DNA of 27,474 bases from a virus. Positions 1,168-21,062 of the stretch are shown here, piece after piece; position 1 is the stretch's first letter; the number at the start of each line of letters is the position of its first letter. The stretch spans positions 1 through 27,474 of the IMG/VR virus record IMGVR_UViG_3300020193_000646. One strand, given 5' to 3'. Below the pieces are notes generated by a model that was not told where the DNA came from, did not search any database, and was given only the letters and a program-made list of their open reading frames with translations. The position numbers were made by a program, and so were the translations under genes.

Positions 1168-2177
1168 AGTTTTATACGCTCCCAGTTGTTTCCATTAAAC
1201 TTGAATCCCAACACATCGTGATGAATCCAACTGTCTAAGTTTTTCCACTTATATCCTGCAAGGCTGGCAGAAACTCCAATCTCAAACGCCTCCATGTCTG
1301 CTGTTTGAAATGGAACAAATGTTCCAGTTTCATCTACTCTATCTTGAGTCTCGAACTTCTTGCAAAACTGCTTGAAGTGTTCGTAAAACAAAGGAAGTTT
1401 CTCATTGTTTCGCAGCATGAACAAATGCTCCTGTGGAGGATATGCCTCTAGCCAATCATCTGAGGAACTAGTGGTGCTAACTTCGTAAAATTTAAACTTG
1501 GGTGCAAAGAGGTGTTCCCACGAATACGGTTCTCTGTCGTGCTTATGGGTCAGCCATTCCTCATATCGTTCAACTAAAGGTCTGACTTTGCCATGACTAA
1601 TTGCACCTAATGCATCTTCTCCAACCGATTCCATGTTGGATATCATAGATTTGATCAAATCTAGTCTCATGGGGGCTATGATTCCGATATCACAATCAAC
1701 ATACATCGCCCAATCATAACGAGAATCAACTTCCCTGAACGCAATATGCTTCAGTAGTTGATTGAATGTCATTCCTGAATAACTCACCCATACTCTATTG
1801 TTCCGCAGATCATCATGTAGTACTGACACTCTACCGTTAGAATCTTTTACTACTTTATCAAACGCCTCTGGCTCATTTGTACAGATGCGAAAATCGTATG
1901 GTGTTTTTTGGAGTACATCATTTGCCAGTCTTTGAGCATACTTGAGATAAATCTCTGCGCCCGGCTTGTCTCGATTGATAAAGCATATGGTGTTAATCAG
2001 AATGTTCGTGTTACTCCTTCCTATCTTTTCTGAAGTAAAAGTTTGCTTTGGTACGGACTCTTTTATCTGCTCGGCTTTCTCTGTGTCTGTGGCTGGAGGG
2101 AGATATCTGGCGCGGCCGGGCCCCGCACGGTCATTTTTGCGGCGCCAGGCGCCACGAACACGGCGGCGATTACCCAT
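1164..2177 (-). CDS. putative glycosyltransferase (DxD-type), with a recently acquired Arg-rich N-terminus
   Basis: 337 residues. The body looks like a GT-A nucleotide-sugar transferase: a beta-strand INTICFINRDKPGAE (about 61-75) and a metal-site-like YVDCDIGI (about 159-166). It has no family assignment I can defend. The first ~45 residues are strange: MGNRRRVRGAWRRK and onward is arginine-, glycine- and proline-rich and is encoded by a GC-rich segment unlike the rest. This is followed by a region read, in another frame, as a copy of the carbamoyltransferase C-terminus. No ATG, GTG or TTG lies in frame between that copy and the conserved body, so the present start at 2177 (AGGGG as ribosome site) depends on the inserted DNA. 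An older start may have been a rare codon near 2003, which has AAGGAG 10 nt upstream. It overlaps its upstream neighbour by 8 nt and its downstream neighbour by 4 nt. Confidence 0.6.
   Translation of the reverse strand: MGNRRRVRGAWRRKNDRAGPGRARYLPPATDTEKAEQIKESVPKQTFTSEKIGRSNTNILINTICFINRDKPGAEIYLKYAQRLANDVLQKTPYDFRICTNEPEAFDKVVKDSNGRVSVLHDDLRNNRVWVSYSGMTFNQLLKHIAFREVDSRYDWAMYVDCDIGIIAPMRLDLIKSMISNMESVGEDALGAISHGKVRPLVERYEEWLTHKHDREPYSWEHLFAPKFKFYEVSTTSSSDDWLEAYPPQEHLFMLRNNEKLPLFYEHFKQFCKKFETQDRVDETGTFVPFQTADMEAFEIGVSASLAGYKWKNLDSWIHHDVLGFKFNGNNWERIKL
2020..2046 (-). repeat. direct repeat copy 1: relic of a carbamoyltransferase 3' end
   Basis: 27 bp matching 2185-2211 with three differences. 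Read in the carbamoyltransferase frame it gives A-N-FYFRKDR and then KE and a TAA stop at 2013-2011, so it looks like the original end of a carbamoyltransferase gene. It is now buried, in a different frame, in the N-terminal region of the next gene. Two of the three differences from the other copy are synonymous in the carbamoyltransferase frame. That suggests the copies diverged while coding, as by recombination between two related phages, rather than by a fresh duplication. Confidence 0.75.
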
Positions 2178-2184
2178 ACTTACC
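2047..2184 (-). other. GC-rich insert between imperfect direct repeats
   Basis: This 138-bp segment separates two copies of a 27-bp repeat. Its core is far richer in G+C than the surroundings: 41 of 60 bases in 2101-2160 are G or C. It contains clustered six-base palindromes (two GGCGCC, one GGGCCC, one CGGCCG, one GATATC). It supplies the stop of the carbamoyltransferase frame and the start and first ~44 codons of the following gene. I read it as foreign DNA brought in by recombination. Its source is unknown, and no recombinase or mobile-element gene is attached. Confidence 0.65.
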
Positions 2185-3813
2185 CCTGTCCTTTCTGAAG
2201 TAAAAGTCTGCCAGAACTAAGCAATCTAGTTGTGTCTTATCATATACAAGCAATGCGTCCGCATATTTAGAAAGTATTGGCTTTCCATTCACATTGAACG
2301 AAGTGTTCAGTAACACTCCGATGCCTGTTTTCTTCTCAAACTCGGTAAGTAAGTTGTAAAGCCAAGGATTTTGCTCCTGCGTTACAGTTTGAACTCTTGC
2401 TGTTCCATCCACATGGGTGATTGATACCAGTTTTTCTCTCCACTCCGGCTTTACCGTAGGACAGAAACTCATCCACCGCGATTCCCAATTCATGTCAAAG
2501 TATTTGGAAGCATCTTCCAATCGGCATACTGGAGCAAATGGTCTGTACCATTCTCTGTTCTTTACCTTGGCATTCAGTATATCCTTCATGGCAGGAAAAG
2601 CAGGATTGCAAAGAATGCTTCGATTTCCCAATGCTCTAGGGCCATGCTCGGAGTTTCCACGAACAACTCCAACAATTTTGCCTCTTGCAAGATCGCCCAC
2701 CAATTTGGTTGTTTCCAATGATTCTGCCCATCGGTCTTCCACATGAGACATGAGAACATTTCTGTCGATCACTTCGACTCCCGCATATGTCACATCAACG
2801 GCAGTTTTTGGTTTCATGTGATTGAGAATCATTCCTACTGCAAGACCGCAATCGTTTGGATTTGGAGGAACGAATACGGGTCTTCCAAGTTCTTGCTGTA
2901 GTTTGGTATTCAATAGGATGTTCAATGCACAACCTCCAACCATAAGCACAGGAATATCAGGATACTCGGCAAAGATTGACGCCATGTTTTCCATGAACAC
3001 ATTCTCGAAAGCAATCTGAGAAGTCTTGGCAACATCCCATCCAAGTTGTCCGTTCATTCTAGCATTGGTATCGAATGTTAGTCCTGTTTGTTGTCCTAAT
3101 TCTGTGAGAAGATGCAGATAGTTCTGTCCATGAGGTCTTGCTCTGTAATAGTTTTCAAAATGAGGAAGCCATTTATGGTTCGCAGTTCCATACGAGCAAA
3201 GTCCCATGATTTTGCCAGAGTACACCAAGTTACCAATGTTCAAGGCAGGTTCTTTGCGGATATCTCCAAGATAATCTCCGAAAGACATATACGGGAACCC
3301 CATGTCTAGGTTGATCTTCTTCACTAGAGTCATTGTGTTTCTATCAGATGCGTGATAGACATTGAAGAAACCATCGTTTCCTCCACCATCAAACGAAACA
3401 ATCAGCGCCTTATCATAATCTGTTTGATAGAACGCGCACGCCGCATGGGATTCGTGATGCAAACATTCCTTATACTCTTTGGCAGGAATCCGATTTTGAT
3501 AGAACACCTTTTCTGATCCTTCTATACTATCGGTGTTCATAAAGTAACAGGTATCGTACTCTTCTATTCCATGTTGCTCTTTGATGTACTGCAAGACATG
3601 GGTAAGAAGATATGGTCTACTGTAAGATGTAAGATATTGGGAGTATCCTGCATTCTTTACTGTGAGAAATCTCTCCATCTCAATCACAGTTACTAGTTTT
3701 CCATCATGTTCAACAGCAACTGCTGAGTTGTGAGAACCATAGAATGCAATGTTTGCTCTGACGGAGGCGGGGATAGTCGTGGTGGCGGTGGTCATGGGAC
3801 AATGCTTGACCAT
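2170..3813 (-). CDS. carbamoyltransferase, NodU/CmcH (TobZ-like) family
   Basis: 547 residues, the usual length for the family. These enzymes move a carbamoyl group from carbamoyl phosphate, through a carbamoyl-adenylate, onto a hydroxyl of a sugar or other small group. The N-terminal Kae1-like half carries the metal-binding HESHAA (about 120-125) and a phosphate loop FDGGGNDG (about 141-148). GGCALN (about 293-298), PNPNDCGLAVG (about 317-327), the C-terminal-domain SEHGPRALGNRSI (about 388-400) and REWYRPFAP (about 420-428) are all typical. It lies among glycosyltransferases, which suggests it carbamoylates the sugar they attach. Phage homologues are common in T4-like marine viruses, but their substrate is not settled. 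The start at 3813 adds about 18 residues before the first conserved strand; ATG 3795 is an alternative. The last four residues come from a GC-rich insert. Confidence 0.9.
   Translation of the reverse strand: MVKHCPMTTATTTIPASVRANIAFYGSHNSAVAVEHDGKLVTVIEMERFLTVKNAGYSQYLTSYSRPYLLTHVLQYIKEQHGIEEYDTCYFMNTDSIEGSEKVFYQNRIPAKEYKECLHHESHAACAFYQTDYDKALIVSFDGGGNDGFFNVYHASDRNTMTLVKKINLDMGFPYMSFGDYLGDIRKEPALNIGNLVYSGKIMGLCSYGTANHKWLPHFENYYRARPHGQNYLHLLTELGQQTGLTFDTNARMNGQLGWDVAKTSQIAFENVFMENMASIFAEYPDIPVLMVGGCALNILLNTKLQQELGRPVFVPPNPNDCGLAVGMILNHMKPKTAVDVTYAGVEVIDRNVLMSHVEDRWAESLETTKLVGDLARGKIVGVVRGNSEHGPRALGNRSILCNPAFPAMKDILNAKVKNREWYRPFAPVCRLEDASKYFDMNWESRWMSFCPTVKPEWREKLVSITHVDGTARVQTVTQEQNPWLYNLLTEFEKKTGIGVLLNTSFNVNGKPILSKYADALLVYDKTQLDCLVLADFYFRKDRGKYG
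2185..2211 (-). repeat. direct repeat copy 2: within the present carbamoyltransferase C-terminus
   Basis: This partner of the repeat at 2020-2046 lies 165 bp away in the same orientation. It encodes ADFYFRKDR near the end of the carbamoyltransferase. After it the frame continues only GKYG to a stop inside the GC-rich insert. Confidence 0.75.
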
Positions 3814-9255: not shown

Positions 9256-10035
9256 TCAAGTTTGTGGAACGGCTTCCTTGATCCGTGCTTCTGCAATTTT
9301 GAAATACTCTGGATCAAGTTCAATGCCGATGAAATTGCGGTTGAGGTTTCTACAAGATATTCCTGTGCTTCCTGAACCCATAAATGGGTCAAGAACCGAA
9401 TCTCCACAATAAGAGTAATACTGGATAACTCTATCTGACAATAAGACAGGAAATGGTGCGGGGTGTCCCTTAACTCTTACAGGAGACAATCGCCATATAT
9501 TTGTCCTCTCATATTTACCAGTTATCAGTGATTGCTGAATCGTTTCATCACTATGTTTTCTTATTCCCTTATCAATAAGGGGGGCATCTTTTTTCCTAAA
9601 AACAAACAGATATTCAGTTATCGTAAATGGTTTATATGCCATTGGTCTGCGATGGTGTGCAAATTTTATTGCCCTATTGCTTGCACCATCTGGTTTCTCC
9701 CATATAATATCATCAATATATTTGAACCCGCTGTTTTGGGCTAAATTAAATGCATCAAATGGGATTGGCAATCTACTGCTTTCAGCGTTTCTTGACTTTC
9801 TTTTAACCAATATTGGTGATGTATTGAAAACAAAAAAACCATCTTCGGATAAAACACGAAATGTCTGTAACATAAAATTCCCAATAAAATCTAAATAATA
9901 TTCATACGAATCAAAAGTCGAATATTCTCTGGCGTTAAAATACGGTGGAGATGTGAATACCAAATCAACACTCCCATCAGGAATATCCTTCATCTTCTCC
10001 AAACAATCACCTTGCATCAGTTCAATCTTTGACAT
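9256..10035 (-). CDS. DNA methyltransferase (N4-cytosine/N6-adenine, beta-type order), inserted
   Basis: 259 residues. The catalytic motif IV VFTSPPYF (about 26-33) is near the N-terminus and the SAM-binding motif I DPFMGSGSTG (about 216-225) is near the C-terminus, followed by NFIGIELDPEYF. This order is that of beta-class amino-methyltransferases, which methylate adenine N6 or cytosine N4 in double-stranded DNA. It has no partner nuclease, so it is likely a solitary methylase protecting phage DNA. The gene is AT-rich (18 of 60 bases G+C at 9781-9840, against 28 of 60 in gp62 at 9001-9060), a sign of recent transfer. The ribosome site AAGGAG lies inside the duplicated gp62 stub upstream. It splits gp62 from the clamp-loader operon. 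Confidence 0.9.
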   Translation of the reverse strand: MSKIELMQGDCLEKMKDIPDGSVDLVFTSPPYFNAREYSTFDSYEYYLDFIGNFMLQTFRVLSEDGFFVFNTSPILVKRKSRNAESSRLPIPFDAFNLAQNSGFKYIDDIIWEKPDGASNRAIKFAHHRRPMAYKPFTITEYLFVFRKKDAPLIDKGIRKHSDETIQQSLITGKYERTNIWRLSPVRVKGHPAPFPVLLSDRVIQYYSYCGDSVLDPFMGSGSTGISCRNLNRNFIGIELDPEYFKIAEARIKEAVPQT

Positions 10036-12932: not shown

Positions 12933-13802
12933 TCAAAATTCCGAAGCAACCTCAACTAGATTTTTCATCTTGTGTTCCATTAAATATGAAAGGATATTTC
13001 CTCTACGAATCGGAATGAAATCTGCATAGTGTTGCAGAATGGATTGCTCCAACTCTATAGGTATGTATCTGAAGTCCACCATGCAGCGGTTGCGATCCCA
13101 GTTTCTTTTTACTTTGTCTGGCATAATTGCTGTACCATCAAACAGATTACCCACAATAAGAATCTGCTCTTGAATAGCAGCAGACTTCTTACTAGTCAGA
13201 GGCGTCTGACGCTTGCCGTCAGTAATGAAACAATCATCGTCCGACAGGATATTCGGAATGCCGTCACCCGAGTCTCCTCCAAGAATGTGGTTCACTAAGA
13301 ACTCGGTTGGATTCTTACACACCACAAATCCCTTTGTAATAGGACTCCATTGCCGAACATTCGGGTAAATTTGCAACTGCTGAAAGTCTTTGTCGCTAGA
13401 AACGATAATGACCTTTTCGTTAATAGAATGGTGCTTGGTCAAGATGGCGATCACATCATCTGCCTCTGCTCCTGGCACTCGCATATGGCGATACGGAAAC
13501 ACATCACGAATCTCTTCGCGGATTCCGTCAATCATGCTGTAGATTGTCTTCCAATCAACATCAGAAGACGCCTTTGCCTTGGCTCTGTTCTTTTTGTAAT
13601 GAGGAAACACAGAGTTTCGCCAACACTTACCACCCTCATGGCAAAGAACAATTTCGCCGGCATCTCGGAACTTCTGTCGATATGTGCGATAGATGTTTAG
13701 CACCGTATGCCGTAACAGATCTTCAGAAAACTGAGCGGCATCGCCCTTCGTAAGGGCGAACAGACTTCCTAACAGTACTTGGTTGTTATCGATTAGAATC
13801 AT
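12933..13802 (-). CDS. rnh: RNase H (T4 rnh type, FEN-1 family 5' nuclease)
   Basis: 289 residues, close to T4 RNase H (305). It removes RNA primers and some adjoining DNA from lagging-strand fragments. Visible catalytic acidic sites: MILIDNNQ (Asp 5), PGAEADDVIA (about 110-119) and IVSSDKDFQQL (about 133-143), then the helix-hairpin-helix region GGDSGDGIPNIL (about 174-185). CHEGGKCWRNSVFPHYKKNR (about 54-73) matches the arch region of the family. It overlaps the gene before it by 1 nt. Confidence 0.93.
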   Translation of the reverse strand: MILIDNNQVLLGSLFALTKGDAAQFSEDLLRHTVLNIYRTYRQKFRDAGEIVLCHEGGKCWRNSVFPHYKKNRAKAKASSDVDWKTIYSMIDGIREEIRDVFPYRHMRVPGAEADDVIAILTKHHSINEKVIIVSSDKDFQQLQIYPNVRQWSPITKGFVVCKNPTEFLVNHILGGDSGDGIPNILSDDDCFITDGKRQTPLTSKKSAAIQEQILIVGNLFDGTAIMPDKVKRNWDRNRCMVDFRYIPIELEQSILQHYADFIPIRRGNILSYLMEHKMKNLVEVASEF

Positions 13803-14908
13803 TAGTAGGCTCCAATGAGAATACAGTTCTCATTGATTCTCCCGCTTATCTTTGCGGGTTTGGTCTTGATGGAGTTCAGCGTGTTTTGCACCATACGAAC
13901 CCCTGTAAGTTTGTTCAGCACATCTTTTGGCCTGCGGAGTTTCTTGGATACAGACTTGGTTTCGTCATAGTTGATAACGGTGGTTCCCTTTACGCTGAGT
14001 CCACGCGGATCTTTTGCAAAGAGTACAGTTAGTGTACGATACTTCTCATTAAACACAACCACTATTTCACTGCCAATGATCTTCTCTGGCGATATGCTTT
14101 TGATATCGTACTCCTTTGACTCGGGCAAGTATTTCATTTTCTTAGTGATTTGGCTTGGAGTCTTCTGCTTTTTCTTACGAGGCTTCCGCTCAGATCGCTT
14201 TTCATCTGCAAAGGTGCGGAAAGCATTGGCGGTTTCAGACAGCATTTGTATGAGTTTCTTGAACCGCGGCCTGGTCAGAAAAGAATATCCCTCGACCAGT
14301 TGTTCGTCTTTGCCTGCATATGCTGTTGCCATCTCTTGCAGATAGGTGGTTTCAATGTAACTGGCAATTTTACCGCAATGCAATGCCTTGACTCCGTGGG
14401 TAGTTGCCCACCCGGCAGGATCAAACTTCATTTCATTCTTGTTTGTGCAGGCGTCTACCACCGAATCCACAATAGCATCAATGTCTCCCAAGTACTCGCG
14501 GTACTTCTGTTCGGTGCGCTCCTGAATGGACGGTATAGCGGTGCCCTGACGCTTGGCGAGGATGGCAGCACCAGTTCGCTTCATATCCCCAATCTCGCGT
14601 GTAATCTTCTGTTTAGTTTCATCTGGCAACGGCGCGCCACGGGTGAGCATTCTACACAGATATCCTATGCCAGAATAACTCTTGATGCCATTTTGTGCAA
14701 TGCACTTGATTGTTTCGGCATCCATCTTGGAATGCTTGCAGTAGTCTAACACCCACCGCTTTTTGTCTCGGTTGGTGCCTTTGCCCCAATACCAATTAAT
14801 AGCCCGTTGGAGAGCAGAGTCTTGCTCATCTTTTGTAGCGCAAGACGCTGCTCCCCAAACTGGCTCGGAGCCATATGCTCGCTGAAGCGTTTTGTTGTAG
14901 TCTTTCAT
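13802..14908 (-). CDS. hypothetical protein, 368 residues, operon leader
   Basis: No family was recognised. The N-terminal ~190 residues are helical and basic, with YGSEPVWG near the start and AINWYWGKGTNRDKKRWVLD (about 36-55). The middle (about 225-255) has a dense Lys/Arg stretch (KRSERKPRKKKQK) likely to bind nucleic acid. The C-terminal third is strand-rich (EIVVVFNEKYRTLTVLF; INENCILIGAY). It starts just 9 nt after the -10 box of a strong promoter, with no spaced Shine-Dalgarno, and overlaps RNase H by 1 nt. Co-transcription with RNase H suggests a replication- or repair-linked job, by inference only. Confidence 0.65.
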   Translation of the reverse strand: MKDYNKTLQRAYGSEPVWGAASCATKDEQDSALQRAINWYWGKGTNRDKKRWVLDYCKHSKMDAETIKCIAQNGIKSYSGIGYLCRMLTRGAPLPDETKQKITREIGDMKRTGAAILAKRQGTAIPSIQERTEQKYREYLGDIDAIVDSVVDACTNKNEMKFDPAGWATTHGVKALHCGKIASYIETTYLQEMATAYAGKDEQLVEGYSFLTRPRFKKLIQMLSETANAFRTFADEKRSERKPRKKKQKTPSQITKKMKYLPESKEYDIKSISPEKIIGSEIVVVFNEKYRTLTVLFAKDPRGLSVKGTTVINYDETKSVSKKLRRPKDVLNKLTGVRMVQNTLNSIKTKPAKISGRINENCILIGAY

Positions 14909-14946: not shown

Positions 14947-16122
14947 TCAATTCACAAGTTTAGGTTGAAATGCCTCATTCTTTGCAGATGGTTTCAAGGT
15001 TATAGCCTTGACAAGACTACGAGAAAGGGCAAGAACCCCTGCATATGGATTTATGTTGGCGCCTGGGCGTCGATCTTCGATATACAGCAGATGTGCTGCA
15101 TCCGTGTTCAAAGGAACAGTAGGCACAGACAAAGATGCAGTATGATCGCCAAATCCCCAAGTAAACTTGTTGTAGTCGCTGGTTCCACCAGTCTTTCCAA
15201 CTAGGCGTTGCTCGTTGCCGGCACCATATGCTACCATGTGTTCGCGGTGATCTTCTCCAATGGTTTCGCAGATTGCTTTGGCAAGTCCTGCATTTCCACT
15301 AGACTTAATGTAGTTGTCCATGTACAGGCGAATGGTGCATCCGTTACCATTCCAGTCTGTGCCAGGGAAACTCTTTGGCGCATAACTGACCACACAACGG
15401 GGCGTGTCTAGACCTTCTGCCGCATTCTCCAACAGATATCGAGAGATGATCAGATTGTCACACGCAGTCAGTAGATCGGTTTCTTGAATAACAAACGACC
15501 ACTGTGACAAGCAGATTCCTGCATTGTATGAACGCATTGCAATCTTCCCTTGCCATGCACACCGATTGTAGAAAGCATTAATCAGTTCCCTGCCTCGTTG
15601 AAAGTCGCCAGAACCACCATAGTACCTGCCTTGCGGACCAGGGAATACCACTTGGGTTTCTCCCTTTTCGTTCTTTCCAGTTGGCCAACGATACGGCTGG
15701 CGGGTGTCAGGATCAATTAATAGGATATCCTGCTCAAACCCAATCTTTACAGCGTTCAGGCCAGTGTTTGCTGAATTGTTGAGAAACTTACACAAATCAG
15801 CACGAGCATTAGATGCGTGAGGAGTTCCATCGGCAGTTTGCACTTCACATAGCACGATATTGCTCCGTCCGAGTGATGAATCTTTCGTAGTACGAACTGG
15901 AACCAAGAACAGATCAGCATTATCGGTTGACGCCTGCTTGCAAGCAGAACCATTAAACCTCTGTATCTTGGGAGTTTCGCCAAATGAAGTGTAGTTAGCA
16001 TTACGAATACCACCGTCAGCATCCAACCAAACATACACCCAATCCGCTATAAGTGGATATTCAACTGTTTCCGCATTCTCGGTATTCTCGGTATTCTCGT
16101 TCTCATGCTTATTCTTTGCCAT
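14947..16122 (-). CDS. class II glutamine synthetase homologue with eroded active site
   Basis: 391 residues, about the length of eukaryotic-type GSII. After a low-complexity Asn/Glu/Thr head (residues 1-20), the GSII pattern runs through: WVYVWLDADGGIR; RFNGSACKQA (55-64); SNIVLCEVQTADGTP; KIGFEQD (126-132); VVFPGPQGRYYGGSG (158-172); SQWSF (206-210); FPGTDWNGNG (252-261); YGAGNEQRLVGK (299-310); WGFGDHTAS (322-330); YIEDRRPGANINPY (347-360). Against plant or animal GSII the fold motifs remain but catalytic residues are gone: the ammonium-site Asp is Asn 56; one of the EQE pair is Asp 132; the metal Glu before QWEF is Gly; the Glu in QWEF is Ser 209; the His of GAGAH is Thr; the flap HET is GGT; the NRxASxR arginines are His and Ser. 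Ordinary glutamine synthesis is unlikely. A scaffold, an inhibitor of host enzyme or a changed ligase are possibilities. It overlaps the gene before it by 1 nt. Confidence 0.85.
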   Translation of the reverse strand: MAKNKHENENTENTENAETVEYPLIADWVYVWLDADGGIRNANYTSFGETPKIQRFNGSACKQASTDNADLFLVPVRTTKDSSLGRSNIVLCEVQTADGTPHASNARADLCKFLNNSANTGLNAVKIGFEQDILLIDPDTRQPYRWPTGKNEKGETQVVFPGPQGRYYGGSGDFQRGRELINAFYNRCAWQGKIAMRSYNAGICLSQWSFVIQETDLLTACDNLIISRYLLENAAEGLDTPRCVVSYAPKSFPGTDWNGNGCTIRLYMDNYIKSSGNAGLAKAICETIGEDHREHMVAYGAGNEQRLVGKTGGTSDYNKFTWGFGDHTASLSVPTVPLNTDAAHLLYIEDRRPGANINPYAGVLALSRSLVKAITLKPSAKNEAFQPKLVN

Positions 16123-17756
16123 TATGATTTCTCCTTTGGTTTGTAAAACACATAAACAGGTTCGTACTTCATGTAGTCACCACTAATCTTGCAATAGTTT
16201 TTACACTTGGGCAATCCTGTCTCTTCGTCAAGACGATTCTGTCCAGGCATAGATTCCATCGCCATCTTCACCTTGTATTTATACACAAGTCCAAACTCTT
16301 CAAGAAATCTTTTTGAATCTTCTTCAAGAGGAAGGTAGTCTCCTCCAATTTGGATATCGGCAATGTTCCATAACAAATACCGATCAGGCTTCAGAAACTC
16401 GGCACAGGTCTTTAGCGTTGGGCGCAAGAATCCATCTCGCCAACTCTCATACGAGGAACCGTACTTCTTGTACGATTGATTCTCGTCCTTAGAATAGGCT
16501 TCGCGGTTAAAGTACGGAGGACTTGTAAAGATCATGTCGATCTTGCCTTTGTACTTCTTGAAACGCGGATCTTTGCCAATCTCTTCAGAACCTAGTCTGT
16601 AGATTTCGTATGTGTTAGTTTCGCTGAAGAACGGATTGCCTCTGTATGTCTTGGTATTGTAGAAGTCTGCAACATCAGCGTAACGAGAACGCTCTTTACC
16701 TGTGTGTTCATCAATGTAGTACAGTTCAGGATTTGGATCAGTTCCAATGTAATGAATTTTGCGATCATCGCGCACACTCATGGCGCCAAGAATACGACCA
16801 CCCCACCCCGATGAAGGATCGTAGATCACAAGCGGAGTCTCCTGCTCCTTGGCGTGTTCTGTGAACCGCTCGTACAGATATTTGGCAGTCATCGGTGGGA
16901 AGTTGTGTGCCACCTGAATGTATCCGATACGGAATGCAGCAAATCCCTTCGGGAACACACGCTCACCCTTGTTGTAAATGCGAATAGTGTACACCCTATC
17001 ATCGGGCATGGCGCTCACATCAAATGTAGAGAAGTGTCGGTACTGTAATACCCCTTCATCTTTCAGTTGCTGCACCTGCTCTCGCGTGAGATTCAAAATG
17101 TCAGACTGATTCAGTTGAAAGTATCCTGTGTTGTTTCCCTCACGAATCTTCACCTGTTCAAGCATGAAGTCGTAACCCTTGAAGATTTCCTTGTTGGTTT
17201 GGAATGCCTTGATCCATGCCATTGCATCGGGTACAGATACGAGAGCAGGCTTCGGATTGTTACGCAAGCACGACAAGGCGTGCATATAGAGAGAGTCTCT
17301 ACGGAAGTGTCGCATTGATCCCTTCACCATGCGTTCAAGAAACTGATCTTCGGCAAATAGTTCGTAGATGGAATATCCATCATCCTTCTCGCTGTAGTTG
17401 ATACGAGTCTTCATCATGGTAGGGAACCATTGATCCGCTTCAGAACCAAGTCTTGCTTTGTTCAGAATCACATCCTTGCCAATATTTTCTAGTTCATCAT
17501 CGAATTCAAAAGACTTCACTGGATACTCCGCCATCTTGTTCCACTCTTCGATGATATCTTCTTCAATCTTTCCTATGCGTGGAGGACATCCCTTGTTGTC
17601 CCAAATATCCACAACTGTGTTACGCATATTGACAACCCACTCGCGGAACTTGTCTGCGTCCATCTCTAACAATTCTTCAAATGTGACATTTACTGGATGG
17701 GTGAGAAGATGCGTGTTCTTCTCAAAGAAAGTTTTATGTGCTTGTAGCGTTTCCAT
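16122..17756 (-). CDS. large methyltransferase-fold protein with intact TSPPY motif
   Basis: 544 residues. The C-terminal half is a Rossmann methyltransferase: SAM-binding VIYDPSSGWGGRILGAM (about 310-326), a strand YIGTDPNPE (about 336-344), and the catalytic motif IDMIFTSPPYFNREAYS (about 406-422), followed by FLKPDRYLLWNIAD. Motif I before motif IV is the order of alpha/gamma-type amino-methyltransferases. The N-terminal ~290 residues are a separate part, helical at first (LEELLEMDADKFREWVVNM), and would be a target-recognition or partner domain. The pattern recalls phage-encoded 'DNA modification methylase' proteins that attend other base-modifying genes. It is joined to its neighbours by 1-nt overlaps at both ends. 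Its target could be DNA, or a precursor already modified by the two genes before it. Confidence 0.78.
   Translation of the reverse strand: METLQAHKTFFEKNTHLLTHPVNVTFEELLEMDADKFREWVVNMRNTVVDIWDNKGCPPRIGKIEEDIIEEWNKMAEYPVKSFEFDDELENIGKDVILNKARLGSEADQWFPTMMKTRINYSEKDDGYSIYELFAEDQFLERMVKGSMRHFRRDSLYMHALSCLRNNPKPALVSVPDAMAWIKAFQTNKEIFKGYDFMLEQVKIREGNNTGYFQLNQSDILNLTREQVQQLKDEGVLQYRHFSTFDVSAMPDDRVYTIRIYNKGERVFPKGFAAFRIGYIQVAHNFPPMTAKYLYERFTEHAKEQETPLVIYDPSSGWGGRILGAMSVRDDRKIHYIGTDPNPELYYIDEHTGKERSRYADVADFYNTKTYRGNPFFSETNTYEIYRLGSEEIGKDPRFKKYKGKIDMIFTSPPYFNREAYSKDENQSYKKYGSSYESWRDGFLRPTLKTCAEFLKPDRYLLWNIADIQIGGDYLPLEEDSKRFLEEFGLVYKYKVKMAMESMPGQNRLDEETGLPKCKNYCKISGDYMKYEPVYVFYKPKEKS
16276..16283 (-). 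promoter_or_regulatory. possible late promoter TATAAATA inside a gene
   Basis: The minus strand reads GTATAAATAC, containing an exact T4 late-promoter octamer, 154 nt before the glutamine synthetase-like start. It lies in coding sequence and may be chance. If used with gp55 and gp45 it would give the downstream gene separate late expression. Confidence 0.25.
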
Positions 17757-18679
17757 TATGCTTCCATTCTTTGTTGTACTTCAGTTTCGCTTAGTCTGCG
17801 CCCAACTATCCAAAAACAAGTACGCTTTGTTAAGTCAAGGTTCTCACGCATCCACTTGTGTGCTTTTGCTTCGTACAGATCGTCAAGGATTGTACCATCT
17901 GCAATCTTTTCCACAAGGGGTTTTCCGTACACCGTATTTAGACAATGCAACTCATATTCTGGCAGAGGATATCCTGCCATTGGATTCACCCATTTGTTGA
18001 TGTTTTCGGTTCGTTTAGGCCCAACACACAATCCAATTACTTTGCCTACATTTATATTGTACCGATGAATGCCTCTGAGAATGGCGGCAAAATGAACCCC
18101 GCTACCCACAGGCACCACCAACTGATCCAACTCGTCTGGTAAATTTTCTACCTGATGTTCAATACTATTAATGATTGCGTCTTCTCTGTTTTCGATGTTG
18201 TGAGTAAAGACTGCATCGTATAGTTTTTCAGACTTTACAATCTCCCGCATCCGTGCAAGCACAGGACCGTGCATTCCCGTCCCGCACACATTACGAATAT
18301 CTGCACCCAACCACTTTGCATATCGCATCATGTGATGATTGTCGATGGTTTCTGGCGAACTGCCACCAATGCAGATGACACAAGGAATCTCTAACTCCTT
18401 GCATACTCTGGCAATAATTGCTCCTGTGGTAGAATGCACCTGTGTGTGAGTCGCTACCCCATTGGTGTGTTCCTTGAGAAAATTTCGTAAGGGATACAAC
18501 AAACTAATGGCCTGCCTTACCTTTCCTCCGCTCACATCTCCACCCCCATAAGGAGTGTACATATCATCTCTCTTGTACCATATTCCCCCAATAATCTTAA
18601 CGGGAGAGAGAATTAGAACATGGGCAGGAAATGCTTTGAGAAAGTCATGTTCCTGTTGCATATCAATTTGTTTATTCAT
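17756..18679 (-). CDS. PLP-dependent fold-type II enzyme (ACC deaminase / D-cysteine desulfhydrase-like)
   Basis: 307 residues from the ATG at 18679, which overlaps the stop of the previous gene as ATGA; a longer frame from 18751 is unlikely. The family signature is IWYKRDDMYTPYGGGDVSGG followed by KVRQA, with the lysine after SGG as the PLP-binding residue. Further elements are VHSTTGAIIARVCKEL (the substrate loop), CVICIGGSSPET, and VVPVGSGVHFAAILRGI, the glycine-rich phosphate cup. Fold-type II enzymes carry out beta-eliminations, replacements or ring-opening on amino acids. Here it is flanked on both sides by SAM-dependent methyltransferase-fold genes, which suggests a part in building an amino-acid-derived modification. 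Substrate not predictable from sequence. Confidence 0.82.
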   Translation of the reverse strand: MNKQIDMQQEHDFLKAFPAHVLILSPVKIIGGIWYKRDDMYTPYGGGDVSGGKVRQAISLLYPLRNFLKEHTNGVATHTQVHSTTGAIIARVCKELEIPCVICIGGSSPETIDNHHMMRYAKWLGADIRNVCGTGMHGPVLARMREIVKSEKLYDAVFTHNIENREDAIINSIEHQVENLPDELDQLVVPVGSGVHFAAILRGIHRYNINVGKVIGLCVGPKRTENINKWVNPMAGYPLPEYELHCLNTVYGKPLVEKIADGTILDDLYEAKAHKWMRENLDLTKRTCFWIVGRRLSETEVQQRMEA

Positions 18680-19341
18680 AGCGGAAGAGTTGTTTTGGAG
18701 TGGCTGAATGTTGGATCGTAAAACTTCTCTTCCAGTTCGCATCCCCACCATCTGCGCCCAGTAGTGCTGGCAGCAAGCAGAACAGGAGCAACCCCCGCGA
18801 ATGGATCGACAACCAAATCACCTGGCTTGGTAAGATTCTCAATCACATACTTGCAGAAATCTTGCGACCACACAGATTGATTCAGTACCTTCTCTTGCCG
18901 ATCCACATAAATGTCGCGCAACCAATCGCCCTTACGGTGAATCACTCCCTCGCTTGTGTATACGAGCATATGTTGGAAAGTGAAGTAGTACATATCGCGC
19001 TTGCCCACTTCGTTTCTTACCACAACCTTGTAATCTTTCAGGCGCAATCCTTCGTTCTCTAGGCATTGTGCATACCACATATGGTTCGACAGAATGAACC
19101 CGTTCACCCTGCGATCTGTCTGGCACACCACAACAAAGCCAGTAGGTTTCACAATACGAGCAAACTCTCGCATTGCTTTCTGCTGAAACTGCCGATATGA
19201 GTCAGTCTCGTCTTTGCTAAATGGTGTTTGGGACAGGTCAGGACATGAAGTGAATACTAAGTCTACCGATTCCGATGGAATGTTGGGCATATAGTCAAAG
19301 GCATCTCCCAACACATATGAGTTCTCTTGAAAGTTTGTCAT
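18676..19341 (-). CDS. methyltransferase-fold protein with altered catalytic motif (SCPD)
   Basis: 221 residues in beta-class order. It opens like a DNA methylase (YVLGDAFDYMPNIPSESVDLV), but motif IV reads FTSCPDLSQT (about 30-39) where active amino-methyltransferases have (D/N/S)PP(Y/F/W). The C-terminal SAM motif is DPFAGVAPVLLAA (about 179-191), followed by RRWWGCELEEKFYD. FVVVCQTDRRVNG (about 69-81) and YYFTFQHMLVYT (about 118-129) are normal in the family. Loss of the PPY stacking residues suggests that it does not flip and methylate an exocyclic amine in the usual way. It may use another target or another part of SAM, or bind only. It overlaps gp46 by 4 nt (ATGA) and the PLP enzyme by 4 nt. 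Confidence 0.8.
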   Translation of the reverse strand: MTNFQENSYVLGDAFDYMPNIPSESVDLVFTSCPDLSQTPFSKDETDSYRQFQQKAMREFARIVKPTGFVVVCQTDRRVNGFILSNHMWYAQCLENEGLRLKDYKVVVRNEVGKRDMYYFTFQHMLVYTSEGVIHRKGDWLRDIYVDRQEKVLNQSVWSQDFCKYVIENLTKPGDLVVDPFAGVAPVLLAASTTGRRWWGCELEEKFYDPTFSHSKTTLPL

Positions 19342-21062
19342 AGTGCAATCCTGCTGAAATTGTTCTTCCTCTCAAACAACATGGTATGTTCAAACTTATC
19401 TACCAACTGATCTGCCTTGTGGGAGATCACAAATACATTTGCATTGACACCAAAGGAGTAAAGAATCTTCATAAACTCCTCGGTTCCTGCGGTGTCGAGT
19501 GACGAATCAAACACCTCGTCCAAGATGAGTAGATTAGTATTTGCGCTGTTCTTAATGCGGGCAATCTCACGCCAAGCAAGTAGCAAAGCCAAATCAATAC
19601 GCATCTTTTCGCCTTCGCTGAAACTCATGTACGAGAAAGTGTCACGATGTCTGCTCTTAATGGTTTCGTTGAACTCTTCGTCAAGCGTAAAGTTTGCAAA
19701 GAAGTCCATTGTGTTCAGATACTTGTTGATAGTTTTATTGATGATGGGCAAATAGTAACGGATGATCTTTGCCTTGATACCGCTATCTTTCAGCAGCGAT
19801 GCCGCTACGCTGTAGTAGTGCATCTCTTCTACCAGGCTATTCTTGGATGCCTCATTCTTATTCAAGTCTCCCTCAAAATCCACCAATCGCTTTTGATGAT
19901 CTGTGTCTTCAGTTTCTTTGCTCTGAATGGCTTTGTTCTCTTTGCTGAGTTTGCCGATGTAGGAGTTGCACGCCGTAATGGTGCTGTTCGCCTCCATCGT
20001 ATGCGTGTTTAGCGTTTCTAGTTCGGTAGATACCTCTTCGTACTCTTCGATCTGCGTTCGCTTGGTTTGAATCTCGGTGACAATGGCGCCAACTGCTTCG
20101 TTCAGTTCACCCTGCTTGCTTTTCTTCTTGCATAGTAATCCGTGAATAGGCTGACTAGCCTTGTCGATGGATTGATGGCAAGTGGGGCATACCTCATTGT
20201 TGTCAAAGAATGACAACTCCTCGCCTATCTTTTTGCGATTGGACTCTAGTTGCTTCTGAAAGGTTTCCAGTTTGGTGATCTGTTTCAGCAAAGCAACTTT
20301 GCCTTGTAACTTGACCTTTACTTTCTCAATCTGCTCATTTAGGGCAACCAGTTCTTCCTGCCTCTCTTCAATCAGCGATTCAGAGCGGGCAATCTCTTTC
20401 AAGTTCCCCTGCACCTGTTCATCAGTCTTGCTCTTTAGTCCTGCGATTAAATCTTTTTGGGCGCGGATAGACTCGTGGAGAATAGCGATCTTGCGTTCGT
20501 TATCTGCAATCTCTTCTTTGAGAGTAGACATCTTCGCCTTGAGAATGGTGTTCATGGTAGAGAACACATTGATATCAAGGATATCTTCGATCACCGCGCG
20601 GCGATCAGATGCCGGCAACTGCATGAATGGTACAAATGAAGAACTACCTAGAATCACCACCTGAGTGAATGACTTGTAATTCATTTTCAGAATCTGCTCT
20701 TCAAGCATTTTCTGATAATCCTTTGTGGTGGCGTGCTGATCCAATAAATTACCATTCTTCCACACCTCAAACCGATTAGGTTTGATGCCGCGAACCACGC
20801 GGTAGGAATCATTGACGATGTTGAACTCCACTTCTACCAAACAATCTTTCTCATTGATGCTGTTCACCAACTGAGGAAGATTGATCTTTCTGAATGGCTT
20901 TCCGAACAATCCGAAAGTGATAGAATCAAGCAAAGCAAATGACTTACCATGTCCGTTGCTGCCCGAAACAAGAATCATTTTGGCTTTGTTCAGTTGAATC
21001 TCAGTAAAGTTGTTTCCAAACGATCCAAAGTTTTTGAATCGAACCTTCGTGAAGGTAATCAT
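19338..21062 (-). CDS. 46: recombination nuclease subunit gp46 (SbcC/Rad50-like ATPase)
   Basis: 574 residues (T4 gp46 is 560). Walker A is SGSNGHGKS (about 33-41). A long coiled coil runs about 170-400, broken by a zinc hook CPTC (292-295). The ABC signature is YMSFSEGEKMRIDLA (about 480), with Walker B LLILDEVFDSSLD near 515 and a D-loop. With gp47 it resects double-strand ends to feed UvsX/UvsY-dependent recombination and late replication. It overlaps gp47 by 4 nt (ATGA). Confidence 0.96.
   Translation of the reverse strand: MITFTKVRFKNFGSFGNNFTEIQLNKAKMILVSGSNGHGKSFALLDSITFGLFGKPFRKINLPQLVNSINEKDCLVEVEFNIVNDSYRVVRGIKPNRFEVWKNGNLLDQHATTKDYQKMLEEQILKMNYKSFTQVVILGSSSFVPFMQLPASDRRAVIEDILDINVFSTMNTILKAKMSTLKEEIADNERKIAILHESIRAQKDLIAGLKSKTDEQVQGNLKEIARSESLIEERQEELVALNEQIEKVKVKLQGKVALLKQITKLETFQKQLESNRKKIGEELSFFDNNEVCPTCHQSIDKASQPIHGLLCKKKSKQGELNEAVGAIVTEIQTKRTQIEEYEEVSTELETLNTHTMEANSTITACNSYIGKLSKENKAIQSKETEDTDHQKRLVDFEGDLNKNEASKNSLVEEMHYYSVAASLLKDSGIKAKIIRYYLPIINKTINKYLNTMDFFANFTLDEEFNETIKSRHRDTFSYMSFSEGEKMRIDLALLLAWREIARIKNSANTNLLILDEVFDSSLDTAGTEEFMKILYSFGVNANVFVISHKADQLVDKFEHTMLFERKNNFSRIAL

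Follow-up and report, generated by a model that had tools for sequence, protein, structure and literature searches.

A methyltransferase and PLP-enzyme module in a T4-like phage and other phages: a candidate DNA hypermodification pathway starting from S-adenosylmethionine

The window analysed here is the whole of IMG/VR record IMGVR_UViG_3300020193_000646, 27,474 bp from a T4-like phage, in which we matched genes for the sliding clamp, clamp loader, gp46/47, sigma, UvsY, tail tube and major head proteins. Behind the gene of a gp46-like recombination nuclease subunit (19338-21062, minus strand; phrog_77, E value 3.2e-170), an upstream neighbour outside the module, four genes lie head to tail on the minus strand. 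The first (MT1, 18676-19341; PF01555, E 5.4e-16) encodes a 221-residue protein of the N4/N6 DNA-methyltransferase fold in beta order, with motif IV before motif I. The second (17756-18679, within a longest open reading frame (ORF) at 17756-18751; PALP PF00291, E 1.7e-12) encodes a pyridoxal-phosphate (PLP) enzyme of fold type II, of the 1-aminocyclopropane-1-carboxylate (ACC) deaminase / D-cysteine desulfhydrase kind. The third (MT2, 16122-17756) encodes a 544-residue protein with a C-terminal N4/N6 methyltransferase domain (PF01555, E 6e-8 over residues 406-543), and the fourth (14947-16122; Gln-synt_C, E 2e-6) a glutamine synthetase (GS) homologue. DNA hypermodification is the most likely function of this cassette, and we give an even chance to the more specific reading that it is a pathway starting from S-adenosylmethionine (SAM) and not from a hydroxymethylated pyrimidine.

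The four genes form one overlapping chain behind gp46, as an earlier note on this sequence had described, with overlaps of 4 nt (gp46/MT1), 4 nt (MT1/PLP), 1 nt (PLP/MT2) and 1 nt (MT2/GS). The second value holds for translation of the PLP gene from an internal ATG at 18679; from the most upstream ATG, at 18751, the overlap would be 76 nt. The internal ATG is the likely start, since the same 4-nt MT1/PLP overlap is found in locus L004 (1962 vs 1965). The ratio of nonsynonymous to synonymous substitution rates (dN/dS), computed for each gene against three relatives, was 0.02-0.04 for MT1, 0.03-0.05 for MT2, 0.09-0.13 for the PLP gene, where one of the three comparisons was saturated, and 0.12-0.14 for the GS-like gene.

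MT1 resembles the beta-class N4/N6 DNA methyltransferases (8s9m, M.PvuII, CcrM) in fold and in motif I. The best matches of its AlphaFold model (pLDDT 89.5) in the PDB are N4-cytosine and N6-adenine DNA methyltransferases (8s9m, E 6.8e-16), and none of the 59 unique ORFs has lost the SAM motif I, DPF(A/S). It differs from these enzymes in motif IV, where the catalytic (S/D/N)PP(Y/F/W) is replaced. The window sequence reads SCPD, and S-x-P-D is present in 57 of the 59 unique ORFs, the other two being truncated at the 5' end. Thus, an aspartate occupies the position of the catalytic aromatic residue in all 57 sequences that cover motif IV, and an aromatic residue is found in none. What the earlier note called an altered methyltransferase is therefore altered across the whole family. 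MT2 carries DPSSGWGG followed by SPPYF in its C-terminal domain. SPPY is kept in 67 of 75 unique MT2 ORFs; the other eight are cut by contig edges or by a frameshift (L027). This frameshift, which is either real or a sequencing error, splits MT2 in one contig, at both of its loci (L027:7001-8634 and L037:7978-9611). A single-protein sequence search with MT2 against the PDB gave no match at the limits used.

The PLP enzyme contains the Schiff-base lysine motif GGKVRQ and belongs to phrog_3650 (E 6.8e-32 for the window, 5.3e-35 for L048). GGK.R is found in 62 of 64 full-length PLP proteins, and the remaining two have GSK. A single-protein sequence search against the PDB again gave no match at the limits used. 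The structural model (pLDDT 90.7) has the fold-type II core with its Schiff-base lysine and aligns with 1j0a at a VIA-align Z of 26.1 (rmsd 2.9, 269 residues aligned). The nearest folds, an ACC deaminase homologue and D-cysteine desulfhydrase, are tied (Z 26.1 vs 26.0). The protein shares with these enzymes the fold, the lysine and the motif YE(A/G)K, which we had considered as a private signature of the phage enzymes and rejected, as ACC deaminases have it too. The phage sequences differ in sharing Q-(V/C)-x-(N/G)-(I/L)-P and (F/L)W-x-VG, neither of which is seen in E. coli DcyD, and the window protein scores 27.9 bits against the curated family TIGR01275, whose cut-off is 289.4. It matches 343 phage records, all at less than 60% identity and mostly from Salmonella, Vibrio, Klebsiella, Escherichia and Dickeya phages; the two that we opened, Coodle and phiA8-29, are Ackermannviridae.

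For the analysis of gene linkage, lineages were defined as clusters at 90% identity and a partner as a gene on the same strand within 3.5 kb; the counts given for 39 PLP lineages are limited to loci fetched by PLP queries. Single-protein searches of IMG/VR yielded 28 MT2 loci, 38 PLP loci and one GS locus, and MT1 adjoins the PLP gene in all 38 PLP loci, many of which are close kin. Profile searches yielded 63 PLP and 71 MT1 loci in IMG/VR, and three loci in bacterial metagenome-assembled genomes (MAGs). An MT1 and/or MT2 partner accompanies the PLP gene in 32 of the 39 lineages (MT1 in 25, MT2 in 26), and in the reciprocal query a PLP gene was found in 22 of 27 MT1 lineages. This linkage exceeds chance and is not peculiar to a single genome. 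Conserved co-occurrence of the families, which the earlier note had proposed as its own test, is thus seen for the methyltransferases and the PLP enzyme, whereas the GS-like protein (8 of 39 PLP lineages) falls outside the core of the proposed four-gene set.

The order of the genes is not fixed. The window group has MT1-PLP-MT2-GS; elsewhere we found MT2-PLP-MT1 and, in L137, a PLP gene with a ParB-like/MT2-like protein alone. Further orders include a hydroxylase, either with a PLP gene (hydroxylase-PLP-MT1-MT2, MT2-hydroxylase-PLP-MT1 and, lacking MT1, hydroxylase-PLP-MT2) or without one (MT2-hydroxylase-MT1). The genes are often joined via short overlaps, and the variable order indicates that they travel as a module. 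Its position differs as well: the module lies behind gp46 in the window, behind a clamp-loader gene in L056, L061 and L063, and at the genome end in phage Vincenzo. Hence, the coupling to gp46/47, with which the earlier note found an anti-restriction purpose to fit, is not general.

The hydroxylase was overlooked in that note. It is absent from the window cassette and present in 13 of the 39 PLP lineages, and across the 47 PLP lineages pooled from all queries it never occurs together with the GS-like protein. It is a protein of about 390 residues with a C-terminal aspartyl/asparaginyl-hydroxylase domain of the Fe/2-oxoglutarate type (PF05118, E 1.6e-12 and 8.4e-11; 4.6e-14 in L108). The active site looks intact: all 26 full-length sequences have HTD, and a KPHxAxN...RxHL stretch is seen in the six C-termini inspected. 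Matches to PF05118 above the cut-off were obtained in records G001, G023, G020 and G019 and in phage LilMcDreamy, which has the only cultured hydroxylase relative found, and were not found in G004-G006, Vincenzo or Montesquieu.

The amino-acid hypermodifications known from phage DNA begin with a hydroxymethylated pyrimidine. The PLP enzymes of phages with 5-hydroxymethyldeoxyuridine (5-hmdU) are said to act on DNA-linked amino acids, and the ViI pathway reportedly includes a PLP-dependent decarboxylation. PMC6336734 counts a PLP enzyme among the 5-hmdU transformation genes conserved in Ackermannviridae; the window encodes such a tailoring enzyme, a member of phrog_3650. Coodle and Vibrio phage D506, whose proteins match the window PLP family, also have matches to PF18723 (5-hmdU DNA kinase, HMUDK), PF18724 (amino acid:DNA transferase, ADDT) and PF00303 (thymidylate-synthase homologue). 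The PLP gene of Glutamicibacter phage Montesquieu overlaps one annotated by the depositors as alpha-glutamyl/putrescinyl thymine pyrophosphorylase (aGPT-PPlase) clade 2, and two PF18751 kinases and a thymidylate synthase/hydroxymethylase lie near it.

The Montesquieu PLP protein is 34.7% identical to that of Vincenzo, where the partner is a methyltransferase-like protein. The product of Vincenzo gene 1 is a ParB-like protein of the N6-N4 methyltransferase type (PF01555, E 3.2e-5, slightly under the cut-off) that is 22.6% identical to MT2 (E 6e-10), and its gene overlaps gene 2, the PLP gene. The latter (L071:1406-2275) was deposited as a 'nucleoside deaminase', yet its product is a PALP protein. 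Searches of the complete 72,139-bp Vincenzo genome with PF00303, PF18723 and PF18724 gave no match. LilMcDreamy is related to Vincenzo, the first ParB region being 59% identical and the terminase subunits 68% and 54-60%. At the position where Vincenzo has its ParB-methyltransferase and PLP genes, LilMcDreamy has a ParB-like gene, a weak Tet/JBP gene, a PF18724 'Amino acid:DNA transferase' (E 2.7e-12, above the cut-off) and the hydroxylase. The second of these (L218:855-1787) was deposited as a queuine tRNA-ribosyltransferase, and its only Pfam match is to the Tet/JBP oxygenases (E 0.0022, below the cut-off). The two phages thus appear to swap a methyltransferase and PLP system for a transferase and hydroxylase system at one genome position. 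The PLP and hydroxylase families thus each appear in two settings, next to an amino acid:DNA transferase in some phages and next to methyltransferase-fold proteins in others. A tree separates the phage PLP enzymes, methyltransferase-linked and hmdU-linked alike, from four E. coli relatives (support 88/96) and groups the Vincenzo enzyme with those of Coodle and D506 (98/92). The recurrence of the same families in amino-acid-to-DNA cassettes bears out the link to DNA hypermodification drawn in the earlier note, and we also lean towards its suggestion that an amino acid on the base would be trimmed by the PLP enzyme.

The marker genes of the 5-hmdU pathway were looked for by family searches of records other than that of the window. 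PF00303, covering dUMP hydroxymethylases, was found in none of 25 records (18 and a further 7 including Vincenzo), most of them fragments, and the controls Coodle and D506 matched. PF18723 was likewise found in none of 25 mostly fragmentary records (18, Vincenzo and 6 more) and PF18724 in none of 14 (13 IMG/VR records and Vincenzo); the controls W01 and W02 matched both families, and LilMcDreamy also matched the second. The largest negative records were G023 (178,609 bp), G003 (126,210 bp), G002 (122,976 bp) and G001 (109,563 bp), of which all four were searched with PF00303 and PF18723, and G023 and G001 with PF18724; in G002 and G003, MT2 is present but has no PLP gene close to it. We therefore rejected a hidden hmdU pathway elsewhere in the records searched. 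The module has in common with the ViI-type thymidine hypermodification of Ackermannviridae a PLP enzyme of the phrog_3650 family, and hydroxylase tailoring also occurs in the ADDT cassette of LilMcDreamy. However, the ViI-type system has a hydroxymethylase, the HMUDK kinase and an amino acid:DNA transferase, whereas here none of these was detected and methyltransferase-fold proteins stand in their place. If such proteins replace the transferase, SAM, which itself contains an amino acid, would be an economical source of the attached group.

Our tentative proposal, which we hold possible but short of probable in this detailed form, is that MT2 and/or MT1 are DNA (3-amino-3-carboxypropyl)transferases acting on an exocyclic base amine, and that the PLP enzyme, the hydroxylase and MT1 then tailor the product in different combinations in diverse phages. 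In the SAM-based pathway at large, MT2, and perhaps MT1, would first move an amino-acid group derived from SAM onto the exocyclic amine of adenine or cytosine, the natural candidate being the 3-amino-3-carboxypropyl (acp) group. Second, the PLP enzyme would process the amino acid now on the base, decarboxylation to an aminoalkyl base being the simplest possibility; we take this as the default step from the ViI pathway, where Lee et al. 2021 reportedly describe it. Third, MT1 might modify the side chain, perhaps at its amine, a role that an aspartate in place of the base-stacking aromatic residue would suit. Fourth, and in the relatives only, the hydroxylase would decorate the side chain. DNA as the substrate, the acp group, decarboxylation, the order of the steps and an anti-restriction purpose are all inferred, and the last of these is plausible.

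A SAM-derived group has already been described as a handle on phage DNA. According to PMC12783734, the CmoA/CmoX/CmoY system of Synechococcus phage S-B43 produces 5-carboxymethylcytosine by way of a SAM variant, and its authors found no N6/N4 carboxymethyltransferase candidates associated with CmoA. As proposed here, a methyltransferase-fold enzyme uses the SAM-derived group there. However, in that description CmoX is a cytosine-C5 enzyme with an SPPC motif that takes carboxy-SAM (Cx-SAM) from CmoA and works with a ligase, whereas the present module has N4/N6-type folds, both of PF01555 and with S-x-P-D (MT1) or SPPY (MT2) in place of SPPC, and a PLP enzyme. CmoA (TIGR00740) exceeded the cut-off in none of 20 records, with weak matches below it in G006 and G003, and a Cx-SAM route was rejected on these grounds.

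The PLP enzyme might instead act before DNA, converting SAM or a precursor to an unusual cofactor, such as decarboxylated or deaminated SAM, from which the methyltransferase-fold proteins transfer the altered group. Spermidine synthases, which belong to the same fold class, do use decarboxylated SAM. The linkage of 32 of 39 PLP lineages to a methyltransferase fits this reading equally, and CmoA provides a precedent for a phage-made SAM variant (PMC12783734). The lack of a CmoA match over the cut-off in 20 records, the counting of the homologous hmdU-phage PLP enzymes among the genes that transform 5-hmdU (PMC6336734) and their reported action on DNA-linked amino acids speak against it, and we consider it quite unlikely.

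Another explanation would be ordinary epigenetic methylation beside an unrelated metabolic gene, MT2 producing plain N6-methyladenine or N4-methylcytosine, MT1 being an inactive partner or a variant, and the PLP enzyme working on a free amino acid. The conserved SPPY of MT2, the fold of MT1 and the closeness of the PLP fold to ACC deaminase and D-cysteine desulfhydrase speak for it. It does not explain why the PLP gene stays with the methyltransferase genes across gene orders and phage groups, nor why the same PLP and hydroxylase families occur in amino-acid:DNA-transferase cassettes; moreover, the invariant motif I of MT1 and its dN/dS of 0.02-0.04 are unlike those of a decaying partner. We regard this explanation as unlikely. 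Both tRNA and rRNA are well known to carry acp groups derived from SAM, and the target could accordingly be RNA or another molecule and not phage DNA. This is very unlikely, as MT1 is nearest to DNA methyltransferases in both sequence and fold, the MT2-like partner in Vincenzo has a ParB-like N-terminal region, and the sister cassettes act on DNA.

Several observations weigh against the SAM-based DNA pathway. The normal SPPY motif of MT2 fits plain methylation, and the PLP enzyme has its nearest solved relatives among deaminases and desulfhydrases, not among known decarboxylases, so that elimination or deamination is also possible. Seven of the 39 PLP lineages (L138, L139, L140, L141 and L207-L209) have no methyltransferase gene on the same strand within 3.5 kb, although L140 has MT2 on the other strand and some of these loci are short. 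Among the five MT1 lineages that lack a PLP gene, two are truncated, and the three with flanks comprise two that keep the hydroxylase and MT2 and one without any partner. The PLP gene of G003 lies a long way from MT2, and the 14 kb read around it contain no partner. PF18724 misses the depositor-named transferase of Montesquieu, so a divergent transferase could be overlooked, and since most of the records are fragments, the absence of a marker is weak evidence for any single phage. The PLP tree that joins both contexts is suggestive only, given its long branches and the 88/96 support. Finally, the chemistry proposed is deduced from gene content and motifs.

The GS-like protein matches the solved glutamine synthetase 4is4 with an E value of 1.3e-45, but its active site is degenerate. 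The window protein reads NAGICLSQWSF and GNGCTIR where solved enzymes read NGEVMPGQWEF and GAGAHTN, and FNGSA in place of FDGS. It thus lacks the EVM..QWE glutamates and the metal-binding histidine, which we take to be metal ligands. L004, L010, L011 and L007 share (N/T)A(G/A)IC..QWS(F/Y) with the window, and L005 and L009 have similar losses, whereas NAEVM..QWE is kept in L044, L046, L195, L014, L016, L017 and L069; L019, with PEVMLSQWEYQ, escaped the search pattern. Since the metal ligands are replaced while the gene remains under purifying selection, a non-catalytic role is likely, and the protein of the window clade is a probable pseudo-enzyme. The amidation step that the earlier note had assigned to it in the window phage is accordingly not borne out. 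That it nevertheless amidates or ligates a carboxylate there could be argued from the 1-nt overlap that ties it into the chain, the purifying selection and the intact metal-site motif in L044, L046 and L195. Given the lost histidine, FNGS for FDGS and NA(G/A)IC..QWS or similar in the window and its close relatives, and an occurrence in 8 of 39 PLP lineages, we find this extremely improbable. For the window clade, the degenerate site and patchy occurrence also led us to reject GS as a core enzyme. GS-like genes also adjoin MT2 where no PLP gene is close by; at two such loci (L014:8600-10093 and L018:2548-4050) the GS-like protein begins with a region that contains a glutaredoxin/thioredoxin-like stretch, LYIMNPGCGWC.

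Modification of DNA by way of a methyltransferase fold and a PLP enzyme would be a route not previously described; we recognised no description of such a cassette in the literature, as covered by titles and the beginnings of abstracts. If the proposal is correct, acp would be a third kind of DNA handle beside hydroxymethyl and carboxymethyl. Direct installation of an amino acid from SAM would need no special nucleotide pool and could reach purines, and many phage proteins regarded as 'orphan methyltransferases' would have to be re-examined. The module occurs in numerous phage contigs as well as in culturable mycobacteriophages, and its enzymes would then be new tools for DNA alkylation. Vincenzo and AlanGrant, mycobacteriophages that grow on Mycobacterium smegmatis, are open to direct testing, and Vincenzo and LilMcDreamy offer a natural comparison of the two systems.

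The three bacterial loci come from two Bacteroidales MAGs and are too few to use. The PLP gene adjoins a recombinase in all three and HsdM in two; by eye, it is flanked by a tyrosine recombinase gene and a type I HsdM-like gene in L207:1781-4378 and L208:5884-9661, and L208 also has TIR-like genes downstream. Elsewhere in the window, a third methyltransferase (9256-10035; phrog_67, E 4e-65) has the ordinary motifs TSPPYF and DPFMGSG. A Nol-like carbamoyltransferase (2170-3813; phrog_1601, E 5e-123) has glycosyltransferases nearby. A family member that acts as a 5-hydroxymethylcytosine carbamoyltransferase is described in PMC8670742; the window protein may not act on DNA, since the thymidylate-synthase homologue was found in none of 18 related records and glycosyltransferases are close by. 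Downstream of the GS-like gene, the window group has a conserved protein (13802-14908; phrog_11903, E 9.6e-65) that is also encoded close to MT2 at several loci, in L028 on the other strand. In some relatives, gp46 and the cassette are separated by a peptide deformylase gene (L052:5030-5908 and L061:2127-2657; PF01327, E 1.5e-33 and 3.5e-39).

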